This document shows, in pieces, positions 11,379-37,011 of a DNA stretch of 37,011 nt. The DNA comes from Sphingobacteriaceae bacterium (GTDB lineage Bacteria > Bacteroidota > Bacteroidia > B-17B0 > Aurantibacillaceae): assembly GCA_947453445.1 (NCBI GenBank), contig CANGGP010000033.1, positions 1 through 37,011 of the forward strand, written 5' to 3'. The number at the start of each line of letters is the position of its first letter. Positions within the stretch are counted from its first letter, which is position 1. Position numbers and translations under genes: made by a program. The notes below the pieces were generated by a model that had not been told where the DNA came from, did no database searches, and worked only from the letters and a program-made list of their open reading frames with translations.

Positions 11379-12146
11379 CTATAAATCTCTTCGTTTAAAT
11401 TTTATAAGTGAAATAAGGAATGGCACAATGGTCCACAATAACAGGATAACAAAAACAATAGATATGGCGAGATTGGTACCAAAAAAATGTTTAAAAATGG
11501 CTCCTGTATAGCCCATCATGGCCGACACATCTAAGTGCATTAAAATTAAAATTCGTGATAAATCAATCGGATTTAATGCACTTAATACCACCATCAATTT
11601 TTCAATTGGGTAATCGGAAAACTGAAAAAGTAAAAATAAAACCATTCCATCAAATAGGAGTGCAAAAAATAACCAAAGCATAATGGCAATGCCAATTCCT
11701 TTTGCTTTATCACGGGTAAAAACAGAACTTAAAAAAGCCAAAGCCACAAAAATGGCCGTTATAAAAACGCCTACCAAAATCATGATTAATCCCACATCAA
11801 ATGGCGCATAAACAAGCAGGGGTAAACCGGCTCCAATCACAAACGACAATACAAATGAAAACACCAAGCCTATAAACAAACAAAACCAAATTTTTGTTCT
11901 TTTAATGGGTTGACTCAACATCAATTCGATAAATTCGGCGCTGTTGTATAAATAAATGCATGAAAAAATCACCGACACAAGTGGCACTGTTAATAAAATT
12001 ACATTCAATAAACTTAAAATTCCCTTGGTGCTATTGTCTTCAAGATTAAATACACTCCACGAAAGCACTGCCAGAATCAAAGTATAAAATAGAACAATTT
12101 TATTCCTTAAAATATCAAGAATGACAAATTTAACAATGCGGTTCAT
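11379..12146 (-). CDS. nosY: NosY, ABC transporter permease of the nos system
   Basis: This 255-residue membrane protein has about six transmembrane helices and the ABC-2-type permease layout seen in NosY. It pairs with NosF, whose gene overlaps its start by 4 nt (ATGA at 12143-12146). In studied nos systems, NosD, NosF and NosY together are needed to build the CuZ copper-sulfide centre of NosZ in the periplasm, with NosFY energising or delivering a sulfur species. Motifs such as SAEFIELMLSQPIKRTKIW near residues 70-88 match ABC-2 permeases. Assignment rests on both sequence type and operon position. Confidence 0.9.
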   Translation of the reverse strand: MNRIVKFVILDILRNKIVLFYTLILAVLSWSVFNLEDNSTKGILSLLNVILLTVPLVSVIFSCIYLYNSAEFIELMLSQPIKRTKIWFCLFIGLVFSFVLSFVIGAGLPLLVYAPFDVGLIMILVGVFITAIFVALAFLSSVFTRDKAKGIGIAIMLWLFFALLFDGMVLFLLFQFSDYPIEKLMVVLSALNPIDLSRILILMHLDVSAMMGYTGAIFKHFFGTNLAISIVFVILLLWTIVPFLISLIKFKRRDL

Positions 12147-12853
12147 GACTTGGTATTTTTTAAAATATTGGAAATTGCTTTTGAGATTTTTATTTCACCA
12201 GTTGATTGTAATAGTTCAACCACACTCAAATGAAATAAAACATTCCCTTCCTGCATAAAAATAATCTGTGTGATTAAATCGTCTAGTTCACTCAACAAAT
12301 GTGAAGTGATAAGAATTAATTTTCCTTTTTCCTTTTCTTCAATAATTTTTTCTTTCAAAGTTTCCGCTGCCAGCGGGTCGAGGCCTGCAGTTGGTTCATC
12401 GAGAATAAAAATAGCGGGATCAAATAAAAACGCTAAGCTTGCACTAACCTTTTGGGTGGTACCACCCGACAATGCATGCATGCGCTGTTGTAACATTCCT
12501 GGCAATAAAAACTTATTCATTAACGCCTCATCAGGCAACCTTTTGGTGCTCCGAATTTCTTTCATCATTTCGATAATTTGACCAATTGTCATATTATCCG
12601 GATAACGACCAATTTGAGGCATGTATCCGATTTGCTCACGGTATAAATTTGTTTTTTCAATATTGAACCCGTTTACCTTAATGCTTCCCTTAGTCGGAAT
12701 AACCATACCAAGGATGCTTTTAATCAGTGTGGTTTTTCCACAACCATTTGGTCCAATCAGGGCAATGCATTCACCTTGGTTTAAACTTAAATTAATGCCG
12801 TTGAGTGCCTTTAATTTTCCAAATTGTTTATGCAAATTGTTAATTTCAATCAT
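12143..12853 (-). CDS. nosF: NosF, ABC transporter ATP-binding protein
   Basis: This 236-residue ABC ATPase is complete. The Walker A is GPNGCGKTT (34-42), the Q-loop is near YMPQ (77-80), the signature is LSGGTTQK (128-135, a variant of LSGGQ typical of NosF-like ATPases), the Walker B is IFILDEP (148-154), and the H-loop is in ITSHLLSEL. It powers NosY for assembly of the copper-sulfide site of N2O reductase. It overlaps nosD upstream (ATGA at 12850-12853) and nosY downstream by 4 nt each, so translation is probably coupled. Confidence 0.93.
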   Translation of the reverse strand: MIEINNLHKQFGKLKALNGINLSLNQGECIALIGPNGCGKTTLIKSILGMVIPTKGSIKVNGFNIEKTNLYREQIGYMPQIGRYPDNMTIGQIIEMMKEIRSTKRLPDEALMNKFLLPGMLQQRMHALSGGTTQKVSASLAFLFDPAIFILDEPTAGLDPLAAETLKEKIIEEKEKGKLILITSHLLSELDDLITQIIFMQEGNVLFHLSVVELLQSTGEIKISKAISNILKNTKS

Positions 12854-14085
12854 AAATTAAGGGCCTTCATAAGTGGTAGGTGATCTATAAAATTATCCGG
12901 CGTTAAACTTGGAATTATTTTTTCTGACTTATCAAGCAATGACACCATAAAACTTCTAAACAATAACATGGCAGGCGGATTTTTTTCTACAATAACCGAA
13001 AATAAACTTAAAGGATGATAAGGAACATCACCAATGGCGTCTTTGTTTAAATCGTATCCTTCATATTTATCCCAGTAATTTGCATTAAACGAATTTAAAA
13101 CCAAACTGCCATTGGTACTAACATCGAAAGTGTTTGACAAAAAATTATTGGCGGTTATTTCATTGTCCATACAGCTGGCTTGAATTTTCATAGCCCATCC
13201 GTTTAATTCAAACGTGTTTTTTTCAAGTTTAATTCTGTTTGTCCCTTCCATATAAATTCCAGTTGTGTTTCTTTTGAATGTGTTGCCCACAATATAACTA
13301 TCCGAAATTTCCTTCAACATCAATCCATATGCGGCATCGCCCCAGTTTTCTTCAAACCTATTGTTGAACATTTTTACTTTTTGGGTAAACATAACTGCAA
13401 CGCCAGCGCCATTGTTTTTAAACACATTCGATATGTAAGCATCGTTGTTTGAAAACATAAAATGCAACCCGTAGCGAATATTTTTTGCAGATCGATTTCG
13501 CCATATCACCGAATTCGTCACAAATTCAAAATAAATACCATCGCGGTGCCCGCTTACCTCATTGCCTTCAATCACCAAACTATCGCTTTTCCAGCAATGG
13601 ATACCATTTCCAATTTGTTGTTCTGCTTCGCCGTATGCAACTATCCTATTGTCTTTGATTAAACACTTTTTACAGTACTGTAAATAAATACCAAAAAAAT
13701 TATCATCCAATACATTTTGAATAATTGTAACATGTTGACTATCGTACACTTTTATTCCGCAGGGATCATTTAAGGTTGCAAACCCAGAATGCTGAATTTT
13801 AAAGCCCTTCACCAATACATTACATGCCTTGATAGATAGAACTTCAAATTTTTTTTGGCCATCCAATACAGGCAAATTTTCGCCAATTAAACTAATGGAA
13901 TGATCAATCACTAAGTTGCCTTCTTGATAAATGCCTGCTTCAACTATAATGCTATCACCATTTTTACAATGCGTTAAGGCCGTTTTAATGCACTTAATTT
14001 TGTGGTGTTTGCCAACATGAATCTTTTCTGCAAAAAAGGATGCCGTACTTAGCAAAAAAATGGCTATCAGAATCCGAGACATCAT
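12850..14085 (-). CDS. nosD: NosD, periplasmic beta-helix maturation protein
   Basis: This 411-residue protein has a signal peptide (ILIAIFLLSTASFF) and a right-handed parallel beta-helix of CASH type through about residues 30-340. The repeats are clear as asparagine-rich turns such as IEGNEVSGHRDGIYFEF, YISNVFKNNGAGVAVMF and YIVGNTFKRNTTGIYMEG. NosD works with NosF and NosY in forming the CuZ site of NosZ. The length fits NosD proteins. The start overlaps the nosL stop by 4 nt, and two adjacent ATGs (14085, 14082) are possible starts. There is a short unstructured tail after the helix. Confidence 0.92.
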   Translation of the reverse strand: MMSRILIAIFLLSTASFFAEKIHVGKHHKIKCIKTALTHCKNGDSIIVEAGIYQEGNLVIDHSISLIGENLPVLDGQKKFEVLSIKACNVLVKGFKIQHSGFATLNDPCGIKVYDSQHVTIIQNVLDDNFFGIYLQYCKKCLIKDNRIVAYGEAEQQIGNGIHCWKSDSLVIEGNEVSGHRDGIYFEFVTNSVIWRNRSAKNIRYGLHFMFSNNDAYISNVFKNNGAGVAVMFTQKVKMFNNRFEENWGDAAYGLMLKEISDSYIVGNTFKRNTTGIYMEGTNRIKLEKNTFELNGWAMKIQASCMDNEITANNFLSNTFDVSTNGSLVLNSFNANYWDKYEGYDLNKDAIGDVPYHPLSLFSVIVEKNPPAMLLFRSFMVSLLDKSEKIIPSLTPDNFIDHLPLMKALNL

Positions 14086-14531
14086 TGTTCCTGTTCAATC
14101 TCTTCCCAAACGAACATGCTTGCGCGCCAATATTCCAAATAAGCATTCGCGCTATCTTTATTTGTAAAAGCGGCAATGTTTCCACCCATGGGGCTGCCCA
14201 CAACATCACCTTTTACAAAAAACAAATTTTTTGCCTTTGCAAAATCATGTGGATAAAGGAAATCTTTGACATAGAACGCCGCTTGGTTTAATTTATCCTT
14301 TTGTTCATTGTGATAAGAAATTAAACAAGCCATGTCGTCAAACTTAAATACTTTACCCTTTTGGCTCACAATTTCACAGGCGAAACGTTTATCGGATATA
14401 CTCATTTTACAATTAAAGCATGCGTCTTTATTAAATTGAATTACTTCAGGTCCAGCTTCTCCACATGAAGTTAGCATAGTGAATAAAATAAAAAAGTTGG
14501 ATGCATAAAAGTATTTCAATATCCTACTCAT
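14082..14531 (-). CDS. nosL: NosL, copper-binding lipoprotein
   Basis: This 149-residue NosL-family lipoprotein has the lipobox LTSC with Cys23. The copper-handling region includes DACFNCKMSI (Cys38 and Cys41), followed by FKFDDMACLISYH and a C-terminal stretch with VVGSPMGGNIAAF. NosL is thought to deliver Cu(I) to apo-NosZ at the outer face of the cytoplasmic membrane or in the periplasm. It sits between the membrane protein gene upstream and nosD downstream, overlapping both by 4 nt (ATGA), which implies coupled translation within the nos operon. Confidence 0.93.
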   Translation of the reverse strand: MSRILKYFYASNFFILFTMLTSCGEAGPEVIQFNKDACFNCKMSISDKRFACEIVSQKGKVFKFDDMACLISYHNEQKDKLNQAAFYVKDFLYPHDFAKAKNLFFVKGDVVGSPMGGNIAAFTNKDSANAYLEYWRASMFVWEEIEQEQ

Positions 14532-15103
14532 GATGAAAATTTGTATTCTTTAATTACAGCTATCAACATACATAAACCACTGCCTATAAACAGCCAACCG
14601 CCAATATCAGGAATTGAATAAGCACCAAAATTGAGTAATTGTTTAAACCCTATTAATGGTGGTTGATATGCCATGTCTGGTATTATAATCGCAGCATGCG
14701 GATTTAAATCATGGCCATAATTGTATTCCCATCGCCAAAAATCGAACATGGCCACTACGCCAAATAAAACAAAAGTAAAGAGGAGTGCGTACAAAAGTTT
14801 TTTCTTACCCAAAACAGCCGTAATGATGGCAAATAAAGCGAAGAAAAAAATGATAAACCTTAAAATCGAGAACTCAACAAAATCAACAGTGTGCAAAGTT
14901 TTCATGCCTATGTAATGATTTAATCCATTGATAATTTCAACATCGCCGCCCAATTTATCGGCGTAAATTTTTAAGTTTAATCCCTCGGGGTATTGCGGAG
15001 CATCGAGATCAATTTGCCAAATTGGTGTAAACGCCGAACACACCAGTAAAGCAGATGATAAAATCAAAAGTATTTTTGACAATCCCGATAGTTTATTTTT
15101 CAT
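14528..15103 (-). CDS. nos-operon membrane protein, function unknown
   Basis: This 191-residue protein has about four transmembrane helices (near 10-30, 80-100, 105-125 and 160-182). A periplasmic loop after the first helix carries WQIDLDAPQYPEGLNLKIYA and INGLNHYIGM, and a second loop carries FWRWEYNYGHDL. Proteins of this type are regularly found between nosZ and nosL in clade II clusters; I do not know a proven function. The conserved His, Trp and Met-containing loops could bind copper or contact NosZ or NosL, but this is inference. It overlaps nosL by 4 nt and follows the terminator hairpin behind nosZ. Confidence 0.8.
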   Translation of the reverse strand: MKNKLSGLSKILLILSSALLVCSAFTPIWQIDLDAPQYPEGLNLKIYADKLGGDVEIINGLNHYIGMKTLHTVDFVEFSILRFIIFFFALFAIITAVLGKKKLLYALLFTFVLFGVVAMFDFWRWEYNYGHDLNPHAAIIIPDMAYQPPLIGFKQLLNFGAYSIPDIGGWLFIGSGLCMLIAVIKEYKFSS

Positions 15104-15124
15104 ATCTATCTTTTTAAAGAAAAA

Positions 15125-15155
15125 AAAGAGCAGTCATTACCAATCACTGCTCTTT
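15125..15155 (-). terminator. Intrinsic terminator between nosZ and accessory genes
   Basis: On the minus strand a 10-bp stem (arms 15146-15155 and 15125-15134, AAAGAGCAGT) with an 11-nt loop is followed directly by a run of T. It sits in the 70-nt gap between the nosZ stop and the membrane protein start. No promoter word is visible after it, so the downstream genes probably depend on read-through, giving more nosZ than accessory mRNA. Confidence 0.8.
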
Positions 15156-15173
15156 AATTTCAAGTTTCAGTTT

Positions 15174-17165
15174 TTATTTAGAACCGACTTCATTGGCTTT
15201 AGGCAGGTTGGTTCCTAAACTCCAAACCAAAGGAACATTACTACCTGAAGGCGATACACGAACATAACCTTGCATTTCTTGATGCAGTGCACTGCAAAAG
15301 TCAGTACAATAAATTGGTGTAATACCTACTCTATCCGGCACCCATTTTAAGGTGGTAGTTTCGCCCGGCATAATTAATAATTCGGCATTAACGGCCCCTT
15401 TCACTGCAAATCCATGGGGTACATCCCAATCTTGCTCTAAATTAGTGATGTGAAAATATACCTCATCACCCATTTTAATGCCTTCAATATTATCCGGTGC
15501 AAAGTGCGAGCGAACGCAAGTCATATATACATGCACCTGATTACCTTCTCTAACTACTTTGGCTTCTTGTTCACCTTTTGTCACATACTTGTGTTTATTG
15601 TCTTCAATTTTATAAATCTTTTGTGAATTCTTCTGAATTTTTTCCGCCAAAACTGCTTGCGCATAGTGTGGTTCACCAATGGTTGGGAAATCGAGAATCA
15701 TTTCCATTTTGTCGCCGCTGATGTCATATAACTGAGCACTTTGGGCTAACTCAGGACCAGTTGGCAAAAAACGATCCTTTGTAATTTTATTGTAAGCAAT
15801 TAAGTATTTACCGGTTGGATGCTTTGAATCTCCTTCTACAACGCACAAATGCCCAACAGAATAAAAGGTTGGTACACGGTCGAGTACTTTTAAATCTTTG
15901 ACGTTCCATTTTACAACCTCAGAAGATACGAAGAACGACGTGTATGCATTGCCATTTGAATCGAATTCAGTGTGTAAAGGTCCTAAGCCCGGTTTTTTTA
16001 CTTCCCCGTATAAAGCGGCTTCGTATTTTATAATTGGTAATCCGTCGAAAGCACCATCAAAAGCTTTTGCTTCGATGGCCTTTATCATTTTACTAAAACT
16101 AAATACCGGAATTAAGGCTGCAAGTTTTCCGCTACCAACAATGTACTCACCACTTGGATCAACATCACAACCATGGGGTGATTTTGGACAAGGCATCATG
16201 TAACAGATATCAGGAAAATCTTTAACGTTAAGCACGGTTACTTCATTTCTAATTTCGGAAGTGGCACTGTGTGTTGATTCGTTGTATTTATTGTGTGCGT
16301 ATTTTGCATTCACTTTTCTGCCTTTACCTGCTTTGATATATTCTTCCGCTTTTTTCCAATTCACTGCCATAATAAAATCCTTGTCTTTTTGCGAAGCATT
16401 TACTTCTAACAAAGTATTGGCTTGTTCGGTGTTATAACATGAAAAGAAAAACCAACCATGTGACACGCCTTTTCCGGCTCTACTTAAATCAAAATTAACC
16501 CCCGGACACTCCAATTGAAAAGCAATATCTAGTTTACCATCTTCTTTACCCACACTAATAAAACTCAAATAGCCTTTGAAGTTTTGTTTGTAAGTGTTAA
16601 TCGGCACATCACCGTTAACATTATCAGGAGGAACACTAAAGCGTGTACCTGCAACCACATATTCGGTGTTTTCAGTTAAAAAAGGAGAAGAGTGATTACC
16701 GGCGCTATTTGGCAATTCAATTATTTCTTCAGTTTTGTATGTTTTTAAACTGATGCGGGCCACACGGGGTGTGTTATTGGCATTTCCAAATACCCAGCGT
16801 CCGTCAGCATCGCCATTTGTTTTTGATAGTTGAACATGGTGTAAATCATCCCACGGCACAAAACCATGCGAAGTGTTTAACATGGGTTTTGTTTCTTCGC
16901 TATAACCCCATCCTTTTTCAGGATCCACCGAAAAAACAGGAATTACGCGAAACAAACGCCCACTTGGAATACCGTAAACCGACATTTGGCCGCTAAAACC
17001 GCCACTAACAAAATTGTACACCTCGTCATATTTTCCGGGCGCCACATAAGCTTTAATTGATGCATTACCCGTTACCGCATTACTGGCATTGTGGGGTTTG
17101 CAAGATTCTAAGGCAGCAGCGATAAGTGTACCGCCCACAACCAATGTAATGATATTTTTTTTCAT
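15174..17165 (-). CDS. nosZ: Nitrous-oxide reductase NosZ, clade II
   Basis: This 663-residue enzyme reduces N2O to N2. The N-terminal seven-bladed propeller binds the CuZ cluster: His109-His110 lie in DDLHHVQL, and more ligand histidines lie in NHSSPF, CPKSPHGCDVDPSG and GLGPLHTEF. The C-terminal cupredoxin domain has the CuA motif YCTDFCSALHQEM (Cys620, Cys624, His628, Met631). The signal lacks a twin-arginine motif and is of the Sec kind, marking clade II. It ends in LESC (Cys22), a near-lipobox with Glu at -2, so the enzyme may be lipid-anchored. It is preceded by a cytochrome c gene 5 nt upstream and followed by a terminator. No nitrite or NO reductase gene is in the window. Confidence 0.98.
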   Translation of the reverse strand: MKKNIITLVVGGTLIAAALESCKPHNASNAVTGNASIKAYVAPGKYDEVYNFVSGGFSGQMSVYGIPSGRLFRVIPVFSVDPEKGWGYSEETKPMLNTSHGFVPWDDLHHVQLSKTNGDADGRWVFGNANNTPRVARISLKTYKTEEIIELPNSAGNHSSPFLTENTEYVVAGTRFSVPPDNVNGDVPINTYKQNFKGYLSFISVGKEDGKLDIAFQLECPGVNFDLSRAGKGVSHGWFFFSCYNTEQANTLLEVNASQKDKDFIMAVNWKKAEEYIKAGKGRKVNAKYAHNKYNESTHSATSEIRNEVTVLNVKDFPDICYMMPCPKSPHGCDVDPSGEYIVGSGKLAALIPVFSFSKMIKAIEAKAFDGAFDGLPIIKYEAALYGEVKKPGLGPLHTEFDSNGNAYTSFFVSSEVVKWNVKDLKVLDRVPTFYSVGHLCVVEGDSKHPTGKYLIAYNKITKDRFLPTGPELAQSAQLYDISGDKMEMILDFPTIGEPHYAQAVLAEKIQKNSQKIYKIEDNKHKYVTKGEQEAKVVREGNQVHVYMTCVRSHFAPDNIEGIKMGDEVYFHITNLEQDWDVPHGFAVKGAVNAELLIMPGETTTLKWVPDRVGITPIYCTDFCSALHQEMQGYVRVSPSGSNVPLVWSLGTNLPKANEVGSK

Positions 17166-17170
17166 ATTTT

Positions 17171-17653
17171 TTATTTTAAACCGTCATTTTTGCGCATAAA
17201 TTCAAATATTTTCCTGGCCTGATCATCGTTTAAACTTTGATTGGGCATTCTCACCAAACACAACTCCAACATGGCTTGTGCTTCAGGATCTTTGTCAATC
17301 ATTGGGTCAGGATTTGTAATAAAATTGAGTATCCACTCACCGGCACGGCGTTTGGTTACATTTTTCCAGCCAGGGCCAACCAATTTTTCTTCTGTGTATT
17401 TGTGGCATGAATTACATTTAACTGAGGCGGTTGCTTCCCCCTCTTTCGCCATGGCTTCATCCAATTTGTCAGTTAAAACCAATGTTTCTGCAGTCCATTT
17501 ACCTTCTCCCCTTTTAGGATCATAATTTTCAGGATCAGGGACCATGCTTTTAACTTGTTCGCCGCCACCAGCCGCGCTTGATTTAGACCCACCGCCACAG
17601 CTAATAAGCACTGCTACCAATGAGAAAAGGGAAAAAATGAGTGTTTTTTTCAT
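17171..17653 (-). CDS. Mono-haem cytochrome c lipoprotein of the nos operon
   Basis: This 160-residue lipoprotein (LISC, Cys19) has a glycine/serine spacer and a class I cytochrome c domain. The haem motif is CNSCH (80-84), and the likely axial methionine is in LVRMPNQ (Met136). Conserved class I pieces include LVGPGWKNV and ARKIFEFMRK. It is the first gene of the nos operon, directly under two FNR-like boxes and TAAATTTG, and nosZ starts 5 nt after its stop. It is the obvious electron donor to the CuA site of NosZ; that is inferred from position and from similar clade II clusters. Confidence 0.93.
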   Translation of the reverse strand: MKKTLIFSLFSLVAVLISCGGGSKSSAAGGGEQVKSMVPDPENYDPKRGEGKWTAETLVLTDKLDEAMAKEGEATASVKCNSCHKYTEEKLVGPGWKNVTKRRAGEWILNFITNPDPMIDKDPEAQAMLELCLVRMPNQSLNDDQARKIFEFMRKNDGLK

Positions 17654-18046: not shown

Positions 18047-20770
18047 TTACTTACTCACCACAATCTTTTGGTTTATTTCTTTTTCGTGGCTTATGCCACT
18101 TACAAAATAAACACCATTTGACAAGCCGCTTACATGCATTTCAAAATGATTGCTTTCATCAAGTTTTAAGTTTTGAACCAATTGACCCAATGCATTCATG
18201 AGTTTTAATTCGATGGCTTGTTGCGATTGAATTTTGAAATCACCAGCACTTGGATTTGGATAAACAATTAACGCATCATTATTTTGAGATAATTCATTTA
18301 ATCCTGTACATGCATTTACTTTCACTTGAACTGATGCAGTACCTGAACAAGCGTTTGACCCTATACCAACCACCGAATAGTTGTATGTAGTTACCAAGCT
18401 TGAAGTCACAGCAAAAGAAGCGGTTGATGCACCTGTACTCCAGCTATAGCTTGTAGCACCAGATGCAGAAACACTATTGCTTTCGCCCTTACACATTGCA
18501 CTTCTTGATGCCACAGCCGTAACCGTTGGGTTAGGCAATACATTCACTTGAATTGATGCTGCACTTGGACAATTTACGCCGGCTGATGTAGTTAATGCCG
18601 TTAATGAATAAATGGTGTTAACAGAAGGTGTTACCAATATGCCTGCAGTTGTAAATCCATTGCTCCAATTGTATGTGTTTGCCTGTGATGCGCTTAATGT
18701 AGCAGATCCACCCGAACAAACAGCCGTATTACCTGATATACTAAGTGTTGGAATAAACACTGAAATTGCAATGGTTTCAGTTGTACTACAACCACTTGTA
18801 CTACCGGTAACTGTATAAATACTATTTGATGTAGGATTAACAGTAATTGAATTATTGTTTGAACTGTTACTCCAAGTATAAGTTGTTGCACCGCTTGCCG
18901 TTATATCAACCGGATCGCCTGAACAAACAAGACTTTTGTTGGCAAGCAATGTAATAGAAGGACTAGCCAAAGCAATTACCACTGCATTTGCAGCAGAAGT
19001 ACAACCAAATGAATTTGTACCAACAACCTGGTAATTGGTTGGTATATTTGGTGTAACGGTAATGGCTGAACCGGTTTGACTGCCAACCGACCAAGTATAA
19101 CTAAGCGCACCACTGGCACTTAAATTAACAGGTAAACCCGAACACAACGAAGTTAATGTTGGTGTTACAACAATCGTAGGAATTGGTAATGCATTTACAG
19201 CTACTGTTGCAACGCCGGCACATGTACCATCGGATGCAATTACAGTGTAAATTGTATTTACTTGCGGACTCACAAGCATACTGCCTGTTGTATTGCTCAC
19301 CGGAAACCATGTGTAACTGTTTGCTGCAGAAGCAGTGTTTAATGATGCAGTGTTTCCAGCACAAACAACGGTTGGTGATGCAATCAATGTAACCGGAAGC
19401 GGTGCAACCGAAATGGTTGTTATCGCCGTTCCTGTTCCACAACCATTTTGACCGATTACGGAATAACTACTTGTAACAGTTGGCGTAAAGCCTACACCGT
19501 TGGTTACGCCATTATTCCATGTATAAGATAAAGCGCCACTTGCTGTTAAGGTAGCTGTTTGACCCAAACATGCTTGGTTTGTGCTACTTGTTACAGAGAT
19601 AGAAGGTAAGCCATTTGAAACGGTAACAGTTAGTACTCTTGAAGTTGTACAATTTGAAGCAGATGTTGCCGTTAGTGTATAAGCAGTTGTAACTGAAGGT
19701 GAAACCACCACTGAAGAAGTGCTTGCACCTGTACTCCATGAGTAGTTACTTACAGCACTGGTTGTGAGTGTTACGCTTTGTCCGGCACAAATGCTCGGAT
19801 TTAAAGTATTTGAAGTTGATGGTACAAGTGAGATGTTACAAAGTTCAGTAATGATCACAAAACCGTTGCCGGTTACATCAGGACAATTAGTATAACCTGT
19901 TGCTCCAAACATGGCAGTTGAACCGCTGGTTACACCGCCCAAATAGGCCGATCCACCACCACCGGCTACACCGGCATTACTGGTTTGAACGCCACCTGCG
20001 CCACCTGCATATCCGCCGCCGCCGCCGCCGGCACTACCTGTTGAACCACTCGAAGAAGGTCCGGCAGATCCACCTTGTCCGCCACCTGTACCCGGTTGCC
20101 CGATAGATGAACCGGCACTGCTGCCGCCACCGCCGCCGCCTGTGTTTGTACCGTTAGCTGTGGTCACTGAACCTAAGCCCGGCGAAGCTCCGTTTGCACC
20201 GGCACCGCCACCACCTGTAGTGATGGCACCTGAGCTGGCAATATTATCACCATTTGCGCCAACAGCGCCACCGCCATTGCCACCTACTGCAACAGATTGA
20301 CTCATTAAGGTACTGCCATAATAAGCAGCACCACCACCACCACCTGCAACAATAATTCTATTTAATGCGCCTGTACCACCAACACGAATATCAGTAGCAC
20401 CGCCGCCACCGCCACCCGAACGACCAACAGCAGCACCGCCACCGCCGCCATTCCATCCACCGGCTCCTGCAGAGGCACTGGTACCTGTAGCAGGAAATCC
20501 TTTTCCGCCAACCAAAATATTTAAAAGCGTTCCGCTTGTAGTTACATTATATACACCTTGTGATAATCCACCCTTGCCTCCACCACCAAGTGAAGTAATT
20601 GATCCGCCATCGGCAGCCCAACATTTAATGCCCCAAACACCTACAGGTAATGTGAGTGTTTGTATTGCACCTGTGTATGCAAATGTGTAAGTTAATTGTG
20701 CATGCGATGTAACCGACAGAAACAAAGCAAGAACAAGCAATCCTTTAAACTTTAAATAATTTTTTTTCAT
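18047..20770 (-). CDS. T9SS-exported adhesin-like protein, glycine-rich domain plus 7 Ig-like repeats
   Basis: This 907-residue protein has a signal peptide (FKGLLVLALFLSVTSHAQ) and a glycine-rich domain (about 27-310). The latter has long Gly runs and the pieces GGGGGGATDIRVGG and RIIVAGGGGG, as in glycine-rich domains related to those of ALK-type receptors. Seven Ig-like repeats of about 75-80 residues follow. Each opens with a Cys-x-Gly type segment and a short strand such as LTASGALSYTW, and each ends in YTV-type strands. The end is a T9SS type A sorting domain (VYPNPSAGDFKI, GVYFVSG). It is predicted to be surface-exposed or secreted. Its repeat array is collinear with that of the gene at 33406-35787. 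High GC in the glycine segment simply reflects Gly codons. Confidence 0.85.
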   Translation of the reverse strand: MKKNYLKFKGLLVLALFLSVTSHAQLTYTFAYTGAIQTLTLPVGVWGIKCWAADGGSITSLGGGGKGGLSQGVYNVTTSGTLLNILVGGKGFPATGTSASAGAGGWNGGGGGAAVGRSGGGGGGATDIRVGGTGALNRIIVAGGGGGAAYYGSTLMSQSVAVGGNGGGAVGANGDNIASSGAITTGGGGAGANGASPGLGSVTTANGTNTGGGGGGSSAGSSIGQPGTGGGQGGSAGPSSSGSTGSAGGGGGGYAGGAGGVQTSNAGVAGGGGSAYLGGVTSGSTAMFGATGYTNCPDVTGNGFVIITELCNISLVPSTSNTLNPSICAGQSVTLTTSAVSNYSWSTGASTSSVVVSPSVTTAYTLTATSASNCTTSRVLTVTVSNGLPSISVTSSTNQACLGQTATLTASGALSYTWNNGVTNGVGFTPTVTSSYSVIGQNGCGTGTAITTISVAPLPVTLIASPTVVCAGNTASLNTASAANSYTWFPVSNTTGSMLVSPQVNTIYTVIASDGTCAGVATVAVNALPIPTIVVTPTLTSLCSGLPVNLSASGALSYTWSVGSQTGSAITVTPNIPTNYQVVGTNSFGCTSAANAVVIALASPSITLLANKSLVCSGDPVDITASGATTYTWSNSSNNNSITVNPTSNSIYTVTGSTSGCSTTETIAISVFIPTLSISGNTAVCSGGSATLSASQANTYNWSNGFTTAGILVTPSVNTIYSLTALTTSAGVNCPSAASIQVNVLPNPTVTAVASRSAMCKGESNSVSASGATSYSWSTGASTASFAVTSSLVTTYNYSVVGIGSNACSGTASVQVKVNACTGLNELSQNNDALIVYPNPSAGDFKIQSQQAIELKLMNALGQLVQNLKLDESNHFEMHVSGLSNGVYFVSGISHEKEINQKIVVSK

Positions 20771-27149: not shown

Positions 27150-30100
27150 TTATTGAACAATTATCTTTTGATGCATTTTTTGATCACCCTTTTCCCCAAC
27201 AATAAAATAAACACCCGGCAATAAACCACTTACCTTGGTTTCGAAACCGTTTGTTTCTTTAATACTGATGGCTTTTACTTCGCGGCCCAATTCATCAACA
27301 ATTTTTAAATTCATGGCAGCATCACTTTCGATGCTAAATTCACCATTGCTAGGATTTGGATAAACAATAAATACCTGTTGACTCAATGCATTTTCTTTAA
27401 TACCAATACAAGATTGGCTACGAACTTGCACCGTTGCCGTTCCGTCGCATCCATTGGCATCTGTTCCAACAACTGTATAGGTGCTTGAGTTAGCCGTTGG
27501 AGAAACCGGTACTGTTGAACCTGTTTGATTGGTGTTCCACAAATATGTTGCGCCACCACCTGCTGTTAAGTAGGCAGTTTCACCTTTACAAATTAGCGTT
27601 CTGTCAACAACAGCAGTAATAGTAGGATTTTGATAAATTCCGATTAATACTGTTTGGGTTGCCGCACAAACCACACCACTTAAAGTACCTGTACCGGTAC
27701 AAATGTAAATGGTAGGCACTGTTGGAGATACTGCAAATGAAGGGAAACCAGTTGAAGTATATCCGCCACCGGCCCATACATAAGCATTGTTACCTACTAA
27801 ACTACCTGAAGCATTGATGGTGATTGTACCGCCAACACATACTGCAGTAGGACCGGTAATTGCAAAAGTTGGAACAAAAACACCAACGGTTACCGTATTG
27901 GTGCGTTTACATTGCGTAGCAGTAAATGTTGCTGTAACACTGTAAACTGAAGTTGTTAAAGGACTAACTTGATTGGTGCGGGTTGAAGCACCGGTACTCC
28001 AGCTGTATGAAACACCGCTTAAAGATTGTGCGCTTAAAGTTGAATTCGCTGCCACACAAACCAGTGGTGGGTTAGAAGTAGCGGTAAATGTTGGTAATGG
28101 ATTTACCACCACAATTTGATTGGCGCCTGTTACGCAACCAAGGGTATTGCTACCGGCAACAGAATAACTGGTGGTTGTGGTTGGACAATCAACAACTGTA
28201 AGGCCTGATAAACTACTTGATGAGGCCGGTGTGGCTGTCCAAGTATATGAATTACCACCTGACACAGTTAATGTTGTACAGAATCCGTTACAGATTACAC
28301 TGGATGTTGGTACAATGCTGATGGTAGGATTTGCTTTTGTGGTGATTGACACTGTAGATGTGTTTGCACAAGTACCATTTGATGCAGTAAGGGTATATAC
28401 CACGCTTGCAGATGGAGAAACCACTACGCTTTGGCCTGTTACACCACCCGGTGCCCATGTAAAGGTTGCCGCCCCACCACCTTGTAATGATAAGGTGTTA
28501 TTGGCACAAACAATTGTGCTTGAAGCAATGATACTTAATCCCGGTAAGTTGTTAACCGTTAGCACAAATGTTTTAGTATCAACACAGTTGGCATTTGATT
28601 TAATTACTGTATAAGTTGTTGTAATGGTAGGGTTAACAGCAATTGTATTTGTATTGATATTACCCGGTAACCATGTATAATTCGTTGCTCCGGTTACCGA
28701 AATTGTAGCGGTTGCGCCAACACAAATGGCTGTTGGTGTTGAAGTTGGGAAGTTAGCAGGGGTTGTTACAACCGTAATACTTGAAATACCATTTACAGTA
28801 CAACCATTGGCAGCAGTAGCATAAACAGTGTAATCACCGGTTGTGGTAGGGAAAAATGCTAAACCATTGGTTACTGTGGTTGGTCCAATCCAAATATAAG
28901 TACTACCACCGGTGGCAGTTAATGTTGCAGTGTTACCTGAACAAATGGTTGGTGATGAGTTGGCAATGGTAATGCTTGGGCTAGGTAAAACGGTAACGTT
29001 TGAAACGGCAGAAGCAGTACAGCCGGCTGCAGAAGTTCCAATTACAGTATAATTGGTGCTTACTGAAGGTGTAACTGCAATGGCCGCCGAAGTGGCACCA
29101 TTACTCCATGAATACGTTGAAGCACCCGAAGCCGTTAAGTTTGTTGTATAAGTGGTACAAGTGGTAGGACTGGCAACAACAACAGTTGGGATGGGATTTA
29201 CAGTTAATGTATATGTTTTCACATTACTGCAATTTCCGGTTGTTCCGGTTACTGTGTAAATGGTGGTAACTGTTGGATTTACAGAAATTGAAGTTGTTGT
29301 TGCTGCTGTATTCCATGAATAAGTTGTAGCACCACTGGCTGAAACCACAGCGGTGGAACCGCCACATATTGCAGTAGGCGTGCTAATTACGGTTACTGTT
29401 GGTGTGGTTAATACGGTTAAACTTGTTGAGGCAGTAGCGGTACAAGAACCCAATGTTGATGCCGCAGTGGCTAAAACAGAATAAACGGTGTTTACACTTG
29501 GACTCACCGCAATTGAAGCAGCACTAACAGCAGTTGACCAAGAATAAGTATTGGCACCGGCAGCTGTTAAAGTTAAAGTGTTACCGCTACAAATTGTGTT
29601 GGTTGCAGGGCTTATGGCCACTGTTACGGCAGGATAAGCAAAAACTGTTTGTTGGGCCATGCCGTAACAACCATTTACAGAGTTTGTTCCAATGATAGAA
29701 TAAACTGTGGTAACGCTAGGGCTAACAGAAATAGATTGGGTGTTGGCCAAGGTACTCCATGAGTAAGTTTGAACACCACCGGATACTGATAAAGTTACAG
29801 CAACACCCGGACAAACTGAAGGGATAACCGCTGAGCTTAATGTAGCAGTTACAGGAACCGCTGAAGCACAATTGGAATTTAAAACACCCAAAGCATTTGT
29901 CCAGTTACTAGTGGTACCGGTTAAAGCATAGTTATTTAAAGTACAAGTATTTCCGTTAGATGTTAAATCGGTTAAAGTGGTTACGGTTGAATTGCTTCCT
30001 GCAGAGATACCTTGGTTAAAGTTATAATATGCAACTAAGCCCGGCTCATTTCCTGCCAATTGGCAACTTGCTCTGAAAGATACTTCAGAAGCACAAAGTG

Positions 30101-30608
30101 GACGGTTCCAAAAACGGAAATCGTCGATTGAACCATAAAAGTTTTCGGTACCAGCTTGGTTTGAACCAATGGCAAAACCACCCGCAGGGGTGTTAGGATT
30201 TGTTCCGGCATTATAAGTAAAAGTACTTACACCGTTAATGTATATAGAAAAGGTACTATTGCCCATTACCAATGAAACTAAATTCCAGCTACCGTTACTT
30301 AAGGTAATACCGGTTGGTACAGTGCCTAATCCACCATATATTAGTATAAGTGAGTTAGTACCTGCGGCCAAATACAATCCATAACCTGAAGTACTTGAGT
30401 TTCCATTATAGAATAAAAACTCATTCGCTGAGGTTGTTCCGGTTACATTCACTCTTGCTTCAACGGTTAAACTGCTGTTTTGCGTGCTCATGATTGATTT
30501 GGAACAATAATCATTTACACCGTCGAAGTTTAAGCAACTTGCCGTTTGTGAAAACGACTTAGTGCTTAGAAAGAAAATTGCCAATAAGGCAAGAGTAATT
30601 TTTTTCAT
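27150..30608 (-). CDS. T9SS-exported adhesin-like protein, LamG domain plus 11 Ig-like repeats
   Basis: From the ATG at 30608 the protein has 1152 residues and a signal peptide (KKITLALLAIFFLSTKSFSQ). A LamG/concanavalin-like domain (about 25-225: LNFDGVNDYC, TVEARVNV, GSIDDFRFWNRPL) is followed by eleven Ig-like repeats of about 75-85 residues, each beginning near a Cys with a strand such as LTAAGANTYSW. It ends in a T9SS type A sorting domain (VYPNPSNGEFSI, GVYFIVGEKG). It is probably a cell-surface or secreted adhesin. The frame is open up to 30668, but the promoter word at 30635-30642 rules out that start. Confidence 0.85.
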   Translation of the reverse strand: MKKITLALLAIFFLSTKSFSQTASCLNFDGVNDYCSKSIMSTQNSSLTVEARVNVTGTTSANEFLFYNGNSSTSGYGLYLAAGTNSLILIYGGLGTVPTGITLSNGSWNLVSLVMGNSTFSIYINGVSTFTYNAGTNPNTPAGGFAIGSNQAGTENFYGSIDDFRFWNRPLCASEVSFRASCQLAGNEPGLVAYYNFNQGISAGSNSTVTTLTDLTSNGNTCTLNNYALTGTTSNWTNALGVLNSNCASAVPVTATLSSAVIPSVCPGVAVTLSVSGGVQTYSWSTLANTQSISVSPSVTTVYSIIGTNSVNGCYGMAQQTVFAYPAVTVAISPATNTICSGNTLTLTAAGANTYSWSTAVSAASIAVSPSVNTVYSVLATAASTLGSCTATASTSLTVLTTPTVTVISTPTAICGGSTAVVSASGATTYSWNTAATTTSISVNPTVTTIYTVTGTTGNCSNVKTYTLTVNPIPTVVVASPTTCTTYTTNLTASGASTYSWSNGATSAAIAVTPSVSTNYTVIGTSAAGCTASAVSNVTVLPSPSITIANSSPTICSGNTATLTATGGSTYIWIGPTTVTNGLAFFPTTTGDYTVYATAANGCTVNGISSITVVTTPANFPTSTPTAICVGATATISVTGATNYTWLPGNINTNTIAVNPTITTTYTVIKSNANCVDTKTFVLTVNNLPGLSIIASSTIVCANNTLSLQGGGAATFTWAPGGVTGQSVVVSPSASVVYTLTASNGTCANTSTVSITTKANPTISIVPTSSVICNGFCTTLTVSGGNSYTWTATPASSSSLSGLTVVDCPTTTTSYSVAGSNTLGCVTGANQIVVVNPLPTFTATSNPPLVCVAANSTLSAQSLSGVSYSWSTGASTRTNQVSPLTTSVYSVTATFTATQCKRTNTVTVGVFVPTFAITGPTAVCVGGTITINASGSLVGNNAYVWAGGGYTSTGFPSFAVSPTVPTIYICTGTGTLSGVVCAATQTVLIGIYQNPTITAVVDRTLICKGETAYLTAGGGATYLWNTNQTGSTVPVSPTANSSTYTVVGTDANGCDGTATVQVRSQSCIGIKENALSQQVFIVYPNPSNGEFSIESDAAMNLKIVDELGREVKAISIKETNGFETKVSGLLPGVYFIVGEKGDQKMHQKIIVQ

Positions 30609-30634
30609 CATTTTTAATTGGTTTATCGAATAAA

Positions 30635-30642
30635 CAAACATA
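30635..30642 (-). promoter_or_regulatory. Bacteroidota promoter word TATGTTTG
   Basis: On the minus strand an exact TAnnTTTG match stands 26 nt before the ATG at 30608. It lies inside the longest possible reading frame, which shows that the true start is downstream of it. Confidence 0.7.
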
Positions 30643-30735
30643 GTGAAATTTTGTTTTACATCAGCCAATTTTTTAAATATTTCCTAATTTCTTCAATTTT
30701 TTGTTCTTTTATATTGCTTTCTGCAATATTTAATT

Positions 30736-33405: not shown

Positions 33406-35787
33406 ATGAAAAAAAATCTACTCATTATTTTATCCATCGTTATTGGTAGCTTAGGCCTAAAGGCCCAATCGATACTTTACTCAAACACTTTTAGCACCAG
33501 TTTGGGTACTGCCACTGCTGTTAACGGTTCAAGCGGCAATTGGGTGTTTGCCAATGCATGTGCGCAAAGCAGTGCAACGGGTCACAGTGCCCCCGGTTCA
33601 GCTATGTTTCAAGGTTCGGGCTGTATTTATGGTAATGGTGGCAACATAGTTAGTGGTGATATGACTACACCAACGGTTTTGTTACCCCCTTTGGGTGGTA
33701 CATTAACATTTAATTATTTTATTTTAAATGAGTGTGGTTCGGGTACTTGTTATTACGATCGTCTGGCGGTTGCGGTGACAAACATGAGCACGAATGTAAC
33801 CACTACCATTACAGATTCATACACAGGCAATATAGCCAACACTTCGGGTTGGACACCTGCCAGCTTCAATTTGTCGAGCTACGGTGGACAACCAATTCGT
33901 GTTGTATTTACTTTTAATTCAATTGATGGTGCACTTAATAATTATGACGGCATTTATGTGGATGACATCAATATTCTTGGCGCTTGTTCAATCAACATGT
34001 TGGCTGTTTCAGGCGGTAATACTGTAAACCCAATGCTTTGTTCGGGCAACAGCTTAACACTTACCACCAATGCTGTGAGTGGTTATAGCTGGAGCAATGG
34101 TGCTACAACAGCAAGTATTGTTGTGTCGCCAACGGCTACTTCACTTTACTCGCTCTCTGCTACCAGTCCATCGAATTGTGTGGCTTCTTCGGTAATTACA
34201 GTAACAGTGAGTGGCGGTTTACCCGTATTAAGTGTTACAACCAATTCAAACAACATTTGCTTGGGTAAAACTGTGATTTTAACCGCGAGTGGCGCCAATA
34301 CTTACACTTGGACCAATGGCGTTATAAACGGCGTAGGATTTACACCAAGTGTTACATCCAATTATGTGGTAAGTGGTGCAAATGGTTGCGGTACTTCTAC
34401 AGCATTAACTTCAGTGACTGTAGCACCTTTGTCAGTTTCAATTTTAGCCAGTCCAACTGTGGTATGTTCAGGTAGCCAAGCCTTGTTAACTGTTGCAGCT
34501 GCGGCCAACAGCTTTACTTGGCAACCAATTAACAGTACTGTATCTAGTAATACTATTTTTGTTAGTCCTCAAGTTAATACAACCTATACTGTTGCAGCAG
34601 GCGACGGCACATGTATTGGTACAGCTACAGTGGCCTTGGTTGCCAAAGCAGTTCCAACCATTAATATCGCGGCCAGCTCTACTTTGGTTTGTCAAGGTGA
34701 CCCTGTAACGCTTACTGCCAGTGGTGCTTTAAGTTATACTTGGGGTCCGGTGACGTCCAATTCTAACAGCGTGGTGGTGAATCCAACTGCACCTACTTTG
34801 TATTCGGTAACGGGTTCAAATTCACTTTCATGTAATGCCGGCGCATTTATTGCCATCATCACCAATCCTAGTCCAACCATTAATTTAAACACTGCCAACA
34901 ATTTAATTTGTAATGGCGATGCAGCTACAATTACTGCAACAGGTGCTAATTCATATACTTGGAGTACAGGTGCAAACTCAAACAGCGTGGTGATTTCGCC
35001 AACTGTTTCAAGTATCATTTCTGTTTCCGGTACTAGTAATAACTGTGTGAGCAACCAAACGATTAACATTGATGTATTTACACCAAACATCAGTATTGCA
35101 GGTTCAACCAGCATTTGTGCCGGTAAGAGCACTACCTTGGTGGCCAGCGGTGCCAACACCTATAATTGGAACAATGGTATACCAACTGCTGTGAACATTG
35201 TAAGTCCTAACAGCACAACTGTTTATGTTTTAAGTACACTCACCAGCACCAGTGGCATTAACTGTTCAAGCACAAAAAGTGTTCAAGTGACAGTGAATCC
35301 GAATCCAACGGTAACAGCAATCAGCACACGTTCAGCGATGTGTAAAGGCGAAAATAATGTGATTACCGCAACTGGTGCAACATCATATTCATGGAACACT
35401 TCTGCTACCACAGCCTCTTTTGTGCTAACACCTAGCTTGGTAACCACCATGAATTATACTGTAATTGGAACAGGTGCTAACGGTTGTCAGAATACAGCAA
35501 CAGTTGCCGTAAAGGTAAATGCTTGTACCGGTTTGCAAGAATTAAACAGCAACTTAAACAGTTTAAATATTTATCCAAATCCGAACAATGGTGAGTTTAC
35601 TTTGAGTTCTACAAATACTGTAAAATTGGCTGTAATCAATCAATTGGGTCAGGTGATTAAAAACATCGAACTCAACGAAAACAATGCTTACCAAAGTAAG
35701 TTAAGCGGATTAAGCAGCGGCATTTATTTTGTGAAAGATTTGAGTAATGAACAAAACAATGCCATTAAGATTATTGTAAATAACTAA
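33406..35787 (+). CDS. T9SS-exported adhesin-like protein, jelly-roll domain plus 7 Ig-like repeats
   Basis: This 793-residue protein has a signal peptide (LLIILSIVIGSLGLKAQ) and a MAM/jelly-roll-like N-terminal domain (about 22-195: SGNWVFANAC, LGGTLTFNYFILNECG, GIYVDDINILGAC). Seven Ig-like repeats follow, and a T9SS type A sorting domain (IYPNPNNGEFTL, GIYFVKD) ends the protein. The repeats align one to one with those of the protein at 18047-20770: shared blocks include GVGFTPSVTSNYVV against GVGFTPTVTSSYSV, ASPTVVCSG against ASPTVVCAG, and STRSAMCKGE against ASRSAMCKGE. The two are therefore paralogues with different N-terminal heads. It is predicted to be surface-exposed or secreted. Confidence 0.87.
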   Translation: MKKNLLIILSIVIGSLGLKAQSILYSNTFSTSLGTATAVNGSSGNWVFANACAQSSATGHSAPGSAMFQGSGCIYGNGGNIVSGDMTTPTVLLPPLGGTLTFNYFILNECGSGTCYYDRLAVAVTNMSTNVTTTITDSYTGNIANTSGWTPASFNLSSYGGQPIRVVFTFNSIDGALNNYDGIYVDDINILGACSINMLAVSGGNTVNPMLCSGNSLTLTTNAVSGYSWSNGATTASIVVSPTATSLYSLSATSPSNCVASSVITVTVSGGLPVLSVTTNSNNICLGKTVILTASGANTYTWTNGVINGVGFTPSVTSNYVVSGANGCGTSTALTSVTVAPLSVSILASPTVVCSGSQALLTVAAAANSFTWQPINSTVSSNTIFVSPQVNTTYTVAAGDGTCIGTATVALVAKAVPTINIAASSTLVCQGDPVTLTASGALSYTWGPVTSNSNSVVVNPTAPTLYSVTGSNSLSCNAGAFIAIITNPSPTINLNTANNLICNGDAATITATGANSYTWSTGANSNSVVISPTVSSIISVSGTSNNCVSNQTINIDVFTPNISIAGSTSICAGKSTTLVASGANTYNWNNGIPTAVNIVSPNSTTVYVLSTLTSTSGINCSSTKSVQVTVNPNPTVTAISTRSAMCKGENNVITATGATSYSWNTSATTASFVLTPSLVTTMNYTVIGTGANGCQNTATVAVKVNACTGLQELNSNLNSLNIYPNPNNGEFTLSSTNTVKLAVINQLGQVIKNIELNENNAYQSKLSGLSSGIYFVKDLSNEQNNAIKIIVNN

Positions 35788-35812
35788 GTTTAGAATCTAA
35801 TCTTTTTAAAAC

Positions 35813-35841
35813 GCATCCATGCAAATGGGTGCTTTTTTTTT
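35813..35841 (+). terminator. Intrinsic terminator after the jelly-roll T9SS gene
   Basis: GCATCCA (35813-35819) pairs with TGGGTGC (35826-35832) with one wobble pair and a TGCAAA loop, followed by a long T-run that reaches the end of the convergent gre-like gene. Confidence 0.82.
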
Positions 35842-36304
35842 AGCTGATTTTTTCGATCAGGTAATTGTTGTTATTGAGTTGAATTGATTGTCCGGCTTGG
35901 GCCCCCATCATTTTTTGACCCAGCGGTGAAGCAGGAGAAATCACGAATATAACCGTGTTATCGATTAACACTTTACCCAAACCAAGTGCCATAAAAAAAA
36001 GTGCATTTGGTGTTTGTATGATGGCGCCTGTTTGCACTTGTGTGCTTGTAGAGGAGGGATCAATTTTAGTCAGTACACTGATTTGTTTTTCAATTTCGAG
36101 TAATTGATCGCCTAGGCTGGCTTGTTCGCTTTGCATTTTGGCGCGGGCAGTTTCGTGTTTATCGCCTGACGAGCTTTTGGTTTCGTTGAGCATTGAATCC
36201 TGTATTTGACGGATGGCTGCTTGGAGACCCTTTTGTTTTTGATTTAAGAGAGACAAACAAGCTTGCAGGATTTGTGTTTTGTTCAAGGTTGAAAATTTTG
36301 TCAA
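35840..36304 (-). CDS. GreA/GreB-like transcription elongation factor family protein
   Basis: This protein of about 150 residues has a predicted N-terminal coiled coil (about 8-85, with GDKHETARAKMQSEQASL) and a small C-terminal FKBP-like domain. The latter contains ISPASPLGQKMMGAQAG and ends in YLIEKI, which is the GreA/GreB C-terminal signature. GreA and GreB rescue backtracked RNA polymerase through acidic residues at the coiled-coil tip; here the tip is not obviously DE-rich, so activity is uncertain. No ATG is available at the start: the frame begins with TTG at 36304 or 36286, the second matching the family start (NKTQILQACL). It may bind RNA polymerase in another way. Confidence 0.75.
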   Translation of the reverse strand: MTKFSTLNKTQILQACLSLLNQKQKGLQAAIRQIQDSMLNETKSSSGDKHETARAKMQSEQASLGDQLLEIEKQISVLTKIDPSSTSTQVQTGAIIQTPNALFFMALGLGKVLIDNTVIFVISPASPLGQKMMGAQAGQSIQLNNNNYLIEKIS

Positions 36305-36378
36305 TGATAAAGTTTATTTTGGAGAAAAATAAAAGTTGGAAAGCGGAATTCTGTTCAATTTTTCCTTTTAAATGTTAC

Positions 36379-36393
36379 CACCCTTGAAGGGTG
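36379..36393. repeat. Short palindrome before the tandem repeat
   Basis: CACCCTT-G-AAGGGTG is a perfect palindrome. A second hairpin TTCCGAT-AAGC-ATCGGAA follows at 36419-36436. Both are part of a variant left arm leading into the first repeat unit. Confidence 0.6.
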
Positions 36394-36446
36394 ATTGGAT
36401 AGATCCTTCGCGTGAGGGTTCCGATAAGCATCGGAAGTAGCGAAAA

Positions 36447-37011
36447 GCCCGACCCCTGAAGCTGAGCGCATTGGATCTGATTCACGATGGCGCGAGCTTC
36501 AGGGGGCACGCCCAAAAAATTATAGAGGAATGATTTAATGCAATAGAACTTCAGATGTTGACGTGTTCGCAATTTGATAAATAGATTGTTTGCATGAGGG
36601 ATTGTAGCACGGCGGTAAGCCGGTGGCTTAACGAGCGAGCTGGTGCGTAAGCATAGGAATCTTTAGGGCCGAGGACTTGCAGCGGAAAGCCCGACCCCTG
36701 AAGCTGAGCGCATTGGATGTGATTCACGATGGCGCGAGCTTCAGGGGGCACGCCCAAAAAAAGAATGAAGAATGATTTAATGCAACAGAAATTCAGATGA
36801 TGATGTGTTCGCAATTTGATAAATAGATTGTTTGCGTGAGGGATTGTAGCACGGCGGTAAGCCGGTGGCTTAACGAGCGAGCTGGTGCGTAAGCATAGGA
36901 ATCTTTAGGGCCGAGGACTTGCAGCGAAAAGCCCGACCCCTGAAGCTGAGCGCATTGGATCTGATTCACGATGGCGCGAGCTTCAGGGGGCACGCCCAAA
37001 AAATTATAGAG
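36447..37011. repeat. Tandem repeat with 242-bp period (two full units and a part)
   Basis: The marker GCCCGACCCCTGAAGCTGAG occurs at 36447, 36689 and 36931, exactly 242 bp apart; copies differ at only a few positions, for example GCATGAGGG against GCGTGAGGG. Each unit contains a hairpin with 11-bp arms: CCCCTGAAGCT (36453-36463 in the first unit) and AGCTTCAGGGG (36495-36505). Another segment of the unit (GTAGCACGGCGGTAAGCCGG) is also rich in complementary parts. Short reading frames on the minus strand that contain GVPPEARAIVNQIQCAQL are only a by-product of the repeat. The array runs off the window. It is more GC-rich than the surrounding genes. Confidence 0.9.

Follow-up and report, generated by a model that had tools for sequence, protein, structure and literature searches.

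Tandem copies of a dispersed, folded repeat at a contig end in Bacteroidota, and the apparent place of Flavo-1 within it

Integron attC sites fold as single strands and have variable tops, like the repeat element described here, whereas their boxes differ from its conserved ends. REP sequences, as characterised in the passages cited here, are palindromes of 20-40 bp in which one foot carries the tag GTAG or CGTC (PMC3733652). The closest described relative is Flavo-1 (Rfam RF01705), which Weinberg 2010, in the passage dealing with this motif, judged to be probably RNA and probably not cis-regulatory (PMC2864571). According to the relevant passages of a transcriptome study of F. psychrophilum, Flavo-1 matches lie indistinctly in sense and antisense, many of them outside transcribed regions, and no function is drawn from them (PMC9723704); a further study ranks Flavo-1 among the most abundant bacterial sRNA families, giving no function where it does so (PMC9029176). 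Apart from these Flavo-1 papers, we found no description of the element in the published literature at title and abstract level (mostly open-access articles, bioRxiv preprints not included). RepRanger, in the part that gives REP counts for Flavobacterium, does not name it (PMC12306157).

The window, that is, the whole stretch of 37,011 nucleotides analysed here, is the entire contig C33 of a 153-contig assembly, and its right end falls inside a repeat. An earlier note, made from the letters alone, had described a 242-bp tandem repeat at this end, with an 11-bp-arm hairpin in each copy. Tandem Repeats Finder confirmed the repeat (period 242, 36439-37003, 2.3 copies, 95% matches), and a repeat search returned two full 242-nt copies that are 95% identical to each other. 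A stretch of 89 nt is present in three copies starting at 36439, 36681 and 36923 (spacing 242 + 242), of which the third is 100% and the middle one 92% identical to the first. The 11-bp-arm stem is present in the minimum-energy fold of unit 1. The natural unit is an element of 104-164 nt closed by a stem, followed by a 78-bp spacer. Its boundaries follow from the sequence and from R1, a covariance model of the complete element built from seven diverged copies of the same genome. The features at this end of the window are the following.

35840..36304, minus strand: GreA/GreB-like gene, left of the array (Pfam GreA_GreB 20 bits, cut-off 26.9)
36410..36513, plus strand: element E1, complete and short (R1 match 36407-36518, 61.8 bits, E 7e-11); P1 stem of GCGTG 36410-36414 with CACGC 36507-36511, then capped P2, P3 hairpin and CC
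36419..36436, plus strand: P2 cap hairpin of E1, TTCCGAT-AAGC-ATCGGAA (from sequence and fold)
36514..36591, plus strand: E1-E2 spacer (from sequence and R1 boundaries)
36592..36755, plus strand: element E2 (R1 match 36589-36760, 84.8 bits); P1 is GCATG/CACGC, with a single A.C mismatch
36756..36833, plus strand: E2-E3 spacer (from sequence and R1 boundaries)
36834..36997, plus strand: element E3 (R1 match 36831-37002, 89.4 bits, E 3e-17); P1 is GCGTG/CACGC
36923..37011, plus strand: 89-bp stretch at the assembly break, found again without change at 36439-36527 and as the opening 89 bp of contig C146
36551-36814, minus strand: 87-aa ORF inside the repeat, probably false

By the R1 boundaries, units 2 and 3 are longer than unit 1. 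The first unit, whose shorter left arm the earlier note pointed out, is a complete element, and the hairpin given as its own (36419-36436) caps one arm of the same structure. The repeat search reported no inverted repeats of at least 12 bp at 35800-37011, and R1 found nothing in the window outside the array.

P1 is a terminal stem that joins both ends of the element, TTTGC and GCCCAAA, and forms a three-way junction with the two arms P2 and P3. Read inwards, the order is TTT, the 5-bp P1, A, P2, a short joint, P3, P1 and CCAAA. P2 starts with a foot of 3 bp (GGG/CCC, GCG/CGC or GTG/CAC, and ACG/CGT in one copy), above which come TT/AA, GNA/GNA, a 2-bp helix, again GNA/GNA, an AAG/CTT helix and a variable cap. 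The internal loop of P2 is two-fold symmetric and reads 5'-GNA-NN-GNA-3' on both strands, around the covarying 2-bp helix. The P3 hairpin varies in length. Element size ranges from ~83 to 240 nt, the shortest copy having ~83 nt.

Across 109 distinct sequences the GNA contacts are near-invariant (G.A in 93/98 and 92/97, A.G in 83/91 and 87/98). The first pair of the 2-bp helix is GC in 74, AT in 13, CG in 4 and something else in 5, and the second is CG in 51, TA in 39, TG in 7, GC in 2 and another in 1. The last P1 pair of the 109 model-found sequences is distributed over GC (53), CG (21), TA (18), AT (11) and other (2), with no G.T at all. In a set of 89 distinct sequences from a pattern scan, standard pairs fill 92.9% of the paired cells vs 25-51% when the pairing is slid, 40 of the 44 pairs change on both sides, and compensatory cells number 350 vs 98.5 (sd 11.1) in shuffles, none of 500 being as high, counts that are raised by the relatedness of the sequences and by an alignment fitted to the model, which leans towards structure. 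Among the window copies, unit 1 folds with low energy both as RNA (z -4.3, 0/200 shuffles as low) and as DNA (z -4.1, 1/200), and the three-way junction of E1 is recovered alike in the two folds; the complementary strand also folds well (RNA z -3.5, 2/200). Unit 3 folds more weakly (z -2.2, 6/200), its best fold retaining P1 and P3 and losing the P2 foot, and a minimal copy of 85 nt folds no better than shuffles (z -0.7, 54/200).

A near-identical TTCCGAT..ATCGGAA cap is found in four otherwise unlike elements (C12:35577, C12:46124, C9:38891 and 36419-36436 of the window), which suggests that copies have exchanged caps. Contigs C64, C72, C110 and C125 of the same genome, G000 (L199, L209, L208 and L205), carry a variant of the element that starts with GCGTGAGGGGCACGAAGGG and has a shared upstream extension; in most of these four the extension holds a CTCTAAC..GTTAGAG hairpin.

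The element is dispersed. In its own genome R1 gives at least 60 matches at E up to 1 and at least 56 at E up to 0.01, lower bounds that come from 150 scored candidates of 951 and include the seven seeds. The scattered single copies for which the earlier note proposed a search thus exist, and its repeat family amplifying in place holds as a family, with local amplification fitting this site, but with 56 genome matches the unit is dispersed as well. For the analyses of own copies we used a set of 59, composed of 57 of the 60 R1 matches, three weak or partial ones being excluded, and two found by pattern. Beyond this genome, R1 matches were obtained in 41 of the 60 genomes searched, the own one included (53 candidates scored per genome). 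The genus is represented by 36 further genomes, of which eight have no match; the maximum is at least 48 copies. A survey of the phylum, with 10 candidates scored per genome, gave matches in 46 of 296 genomes. The pattern scan returned at least 118 stretches, in Flavobacterium, Chitinophaga, Pedobacter, Mucilaginibacter, Rufibacter, Marinifilum and other named genomes; 77 of the 80 loci among the matches listed have R1 matches, 90 in total. Exact pattern matches in viral contigs numbered zero, with a pattern that, being exact, would miss diverged copies. Contig-end copies in G124, G198 and G274 hinted at a position near rRNA, but no Rfam match came up at these places.

Pattern matches were also seen in two MAGs labelled Alphaproteobacteria and Planctomycetota (L258 and L312); L258 has no R1 match, L312 is a 3-kb contig, and wrong binning is likely. 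Another direct array, of three elements with the last two 268 bp apart, came from a scan of 91 loci and lies elsewhere in the own genome (L206, G000:C2:35322-36044).

Single sites differ between congeners. A mutS match was obtained in 38 genomes, and in the 30 loci compared from these the element is directly upstream of mutS four times (L430, the own locus, L433, L437 and L440). In L432 it is further from mutS, and in L447 the match is at chance level. In L438 and L439 nothing fills the gap upstream of mutS; in L437 and L440 a head-to-head pair occupies it. In G015 (L136) a copy precedes a gene that we named by eye as citrate synthase; this copy has no counterpart in the window.

Our preferred reading, held with slightly more belief than doubt, is that the array is a local case of a dispersed, mobile folded repeat that acts at the DNA level, and that Flavo-1 is a part of it. 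On sequence evidence, Flavo-1 appears to be the P2 half of the element in sibling copies, and would then be mis-filed as a stand-alone sRNA. The two share the P2 stem, including its paired GNA loops and a cap that can be exchanged, and both belong to Bacteroidetes, but in the alignment the RF01705 model (76 positions) ends at the 3' foot of P2, whereas the element continues to P3 and the closing P1, which are outside the Rfam model. One sibling copy scores 62.3 bits against RF01705. In the own genome, 2 of 13 listed matches reach the gathering score of 42 bits (C14:29586 and C48:21929), and eight further ones have E < 0.003, including the element on contig C146 (31.9 bits, < 42). The window copies are not among the RF01705 matches at E up to 5 and do not attain the cut-off, and against Rfam as a whole the window gave nothing at curated score; with E relaxed to 5, the matches that came up were weak and concerned unrelated families. 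As a control, 14 well-known genomes were searched, five of which gave RF01705 matches at E up to 1 and none a match over the cut-off. Four above-threshold matches were found in relatives, in 3 of 16 loci scanned (L142 twice, L143 and L146).

The best surviving alternative, rather unlikely in our judgement, is that the element is a structured RNA: Flavo-1 would be what it is filed as, an sRNA or leader that has undergone many duplications, and P1 and P3 would belong to the RNA molecule. Its standing as an Rfam sRNA and the two own-genome copies that pass the threshold are in line with this. The evidence from wobble pairs is divided. In the model-found set G.T occupies 19 of the 1347 cells of the core and 19 of the 278 variant ones, far fewer than in the SRP RNA of the same relatives (93/928 core and 47/168 variant cells; 30 loci, out of 54 relatives with a match). 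The pattern-found set, with G.T in 23 of 1133 core and 23 of 116 variant cells, has a variant share close to that of SRP RNA, as would be expected of an RNA; we gave this count less weight because the left side is fixed by the search pattern and 12 of the 23 variant G.T fall on one pair. In the variable hairpins G.T makes up 28 of 875, next to 107 other mismatches. In all three counts G.T exceeds A.C (19:5 in the model-found set, 23:5 in the pattern-found set and 28:9 in the variable hairpins). The fold therefore belongs to one strand, since a cruciform with equal strands would give parity; an RNA, too, would be compatible with this excess and with the folding energies.

The relation of the copies to genes is mixed, which argues against an RNA gene or leader. 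Among the 51 of 59 own copies with both neighbours called, the neighbouring genes are sense in 17, antisense in 9, convergent in 14 and divergent in 11 cases, on crude ORF calls that left eight copies lacking at least one of their two neighbours. Two of the 59 overlap a called ORF of at least 200 aa, so not every copy is plainly intergenic. The same lack of a consistent strand, often in untranscribed regions, is what the cited passages report for Flavo-1 in F. psychrophilum (PMC9723704). With respect to replication, the 9 and 8 listed copies of G254 and G159 have no clear strand bias, judged against a noisy GC skew from ten 15-kb samples per genome, one of which held two copies beyond the listed ones. 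We favour DNA over RNA because G.T is scarce in one of the two sets, orientation is mixed and copies occur in head-to-head pairs, and also because copy number ranges from 0 to at least 48 within the genus and the site upstream of mutS is filled or empty among congeners. From this we infer that single-stranded DNA is the active form.

One group of copies bears on both readings. In five congeners (L138, L139, L140, L141 and L153, drawn from the best-match loci of the 60-genome search) a copy stops 57-58 bp before ssb, the gene of the single-strand DNA-binding protein, which was recognised by eye. These copies lie on the strand of the gene, as an RNA leader would. Sequence between element and ssb is likewise conserved, and includes a TTAAGCTTAATTTTA block that looks promoter-like; placed between element and gene, it would speak against the RNA reading. 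Differences between species in the ssb copies fall on both sides at once in a P1 pair, in the 2-bp helix, in the P2 cap and in the P3 foot; the 2-bp helix of L153 contains one T.G. Such compensatory changes show selection on the fold at a fixed site. The ssb-upstream copies are the strongest hint of function that the comparison offers, and their kept structure would point to a local function rather than to mobility alone.

It is quite unlikely, in our estimate, that the core is the inside of old MITEs whose ends have decayed, with the fold as a passenger. The best case for it is G017, where the element is carried inside a transposon with terminal inverted repeats, a result that also counts in favour of our own reading of a mobile DNA repeat. 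Of 22 copies examined in this genome, 19 possess at least one of the two ends that delimit a longer unit of 228-358 bp, which has inverted ends, contains the core and is flanked by 8-bp target duplications. The flanking 8-mers match at 7-8 positions in 14 of 16 copies vs 3 of 240 swapped pairs (taking the best of nine registers in both sets; 3 of the 19 copies, without a placed end pair, were dropped). The transposase behind this carrier must be of a type that generates 8-bp duplications. In other genomes, too, some core copies are inside longer repeats, but the carriers differ from genome to genome, and the core occurs in genomes and copies without the G017 carrier. In many copies with unrelated flanks, similarity stops, as judged by eye, right at P1 and CCAAA. 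In 54 own copies the 15 bases ahead of P1 show no more than a T preference at the final three positions and, beyond these, a slight tendency towards A/G. Inverted ends like those of the G017 unit were not seen at the window array. Compensatory change that keeps the fold at a fixed site also argues against a mere passenger.

Movement as a REP/REPIN-type element by a Y1 (RAYT) transposase is very unlikely. The element resembles REP, BIME and REPIN sequences in being palindromic, dispersed and frequently paired head-to-head: close pairs, taken from loci picked by best match and not randomly, comprise 15 head-to-head, 9 direct and 0 tail-to-tail cases, so that the inverted pairing of a REPIN is present. 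One of the 15 head-to-head pairs (in G017) includes a transposon-borne copy, and G025 has five pairs separated by only 5-15 bp. The element is larger (~83-240 nt), however, and forms a three-way junction instead of one hairpin, and in place of a GTAG/CGTC tag at the foot of a 20-40 bp palindrome it has the ends TTTGC..GCCCAAA, with even the shortest copy reaching ~83 nt. In favour of this reading, the cited passages describe atypical flanking structures without GT[AG]G tag for RAYT subclass 2.6 of Bacteroidetes (PMC6006769). A few Y1 genes also share a contig with an element at a distance of ~2 kb, e.g. G009:C272 and G028:C384. Nevertheless, just 1 of 31 Y1 loci examined holds the element, and G045 and G051, both well-completed genomes, gave no Y1 match despite their 20 and 10 R1 matches. 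In the own genome, other repeats flank both Y1 genes. We thus found no RAYT association and rejected Y1 as a general partner.

The own Y1 genes lie at G000:C1:26379 (L091) and G000:C25:34709 (L090); one is flanked by GCGTAGGTTTCC..GGAAACCTACGC hairpins and one by TGCCTCTCTGAGGCA hairpins. In G050 the only copy found in the genome lies between a Y1 gene and, as recognised by eye, a gene for a DinB-type polymerase (L371, G050:C3:219330).

Returning to the reading of the array as a local case of a mobile DNA repeat, its place can be deduced from contig C146 (3525 bp), which opens with the same 89 bp, continues with one complete element (E4), whose P2 cap differs from those of the window copies, and then enters mutS, matched by the Pfam MutS domains. 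The GreA-like gene and mutS adjoin in four loci of relatives (L431, L432, L436 and L448), in which the GreA-like protein is 34-48% identical; the next gene is the aminotransferase-family gene of the window in L432, L436 and L448, and one resembling the window's secreted protein in L431. Because of this gene order, C33 and C146 are most likely adjacent, with the array filling the gap before mutS, and the array would therefore have at least four elements. Extension towards the array end thus adds one element. With the first and third 89-mers identical, a short-read assembly would presumably form a loop here and could not fix the true copy number. That the whole array is an assembly artefact is hardly credible: the contig does stop in the repeat and the 89-bp ends are identical, but the units are 5% different, E4 has another P2 cap and the element is present at dozens of other sites, so that the assembly doubt concerns the copy number of the array only. 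A copy in the gap before mutS was probably multiplied into the direct array by unequal exchange between copies.

If the DNA-level reading holds, one strand, whenever single, would fold into the conserved three-way junction, and a protein would recognise this folded strand, the symmetric loop suggesting a dimer. Such recognition might help the element to spread, or might give hosts a reason to keep certain copies, e.g. before ssb. Several results do not sit easily with this reading: the G.T share of variant cells in the pattern-found set, near that of SRP RNA; the scarcity of the element at Y1 loci, and the fact that we identified no enzyme for the core in the own genome; the absence of inverted repeats of 12 bp or more from 35800-37011; and the poor fold of the 85-nt copy. 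A bolder proposal, which we put forward as doubtful, is that the element represents a new class of structured mobile DNA across Bacteroidota, neither REP nor RNA gene, in which a putative dimeric protein reads the GNA-NN-GNA loop, and which uses unrelated carriers, pairs head-to-head and is kept by hosts at sites such as that before ssb. Should Flavo-1 prove to be one half of such a mobile element, Bacteroidota genomes would have to be annotated differently, the sense/antisense scatter of Flavo-1 would be explained, and the role of the element would become testable through a protein that binds the folded strand and through the host-kept copies.

Elsewhere in the window, a nitrous oxide reductase cluster occupies 11379-17653 on the minus strand, with the following genes.

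15174-17165, minus strand: nosZ-type gene (Pfam nos_propeller)
14082-14531, minus strand: NosL (Pfam)
12850-14085, minus strand: NosD (Pfam)
11379-12853, minus strand: ABC pair (by eye)
17171, minus strand: small c-type cytochrome-like ORF (by eye)

The window also encodes three long similar surface proteins (18047-20770, 27150-30668 and 33406-35787), the last of which has a Por secretion C-terminal tail by domain match; the other two were judged alike by eye from their translations.
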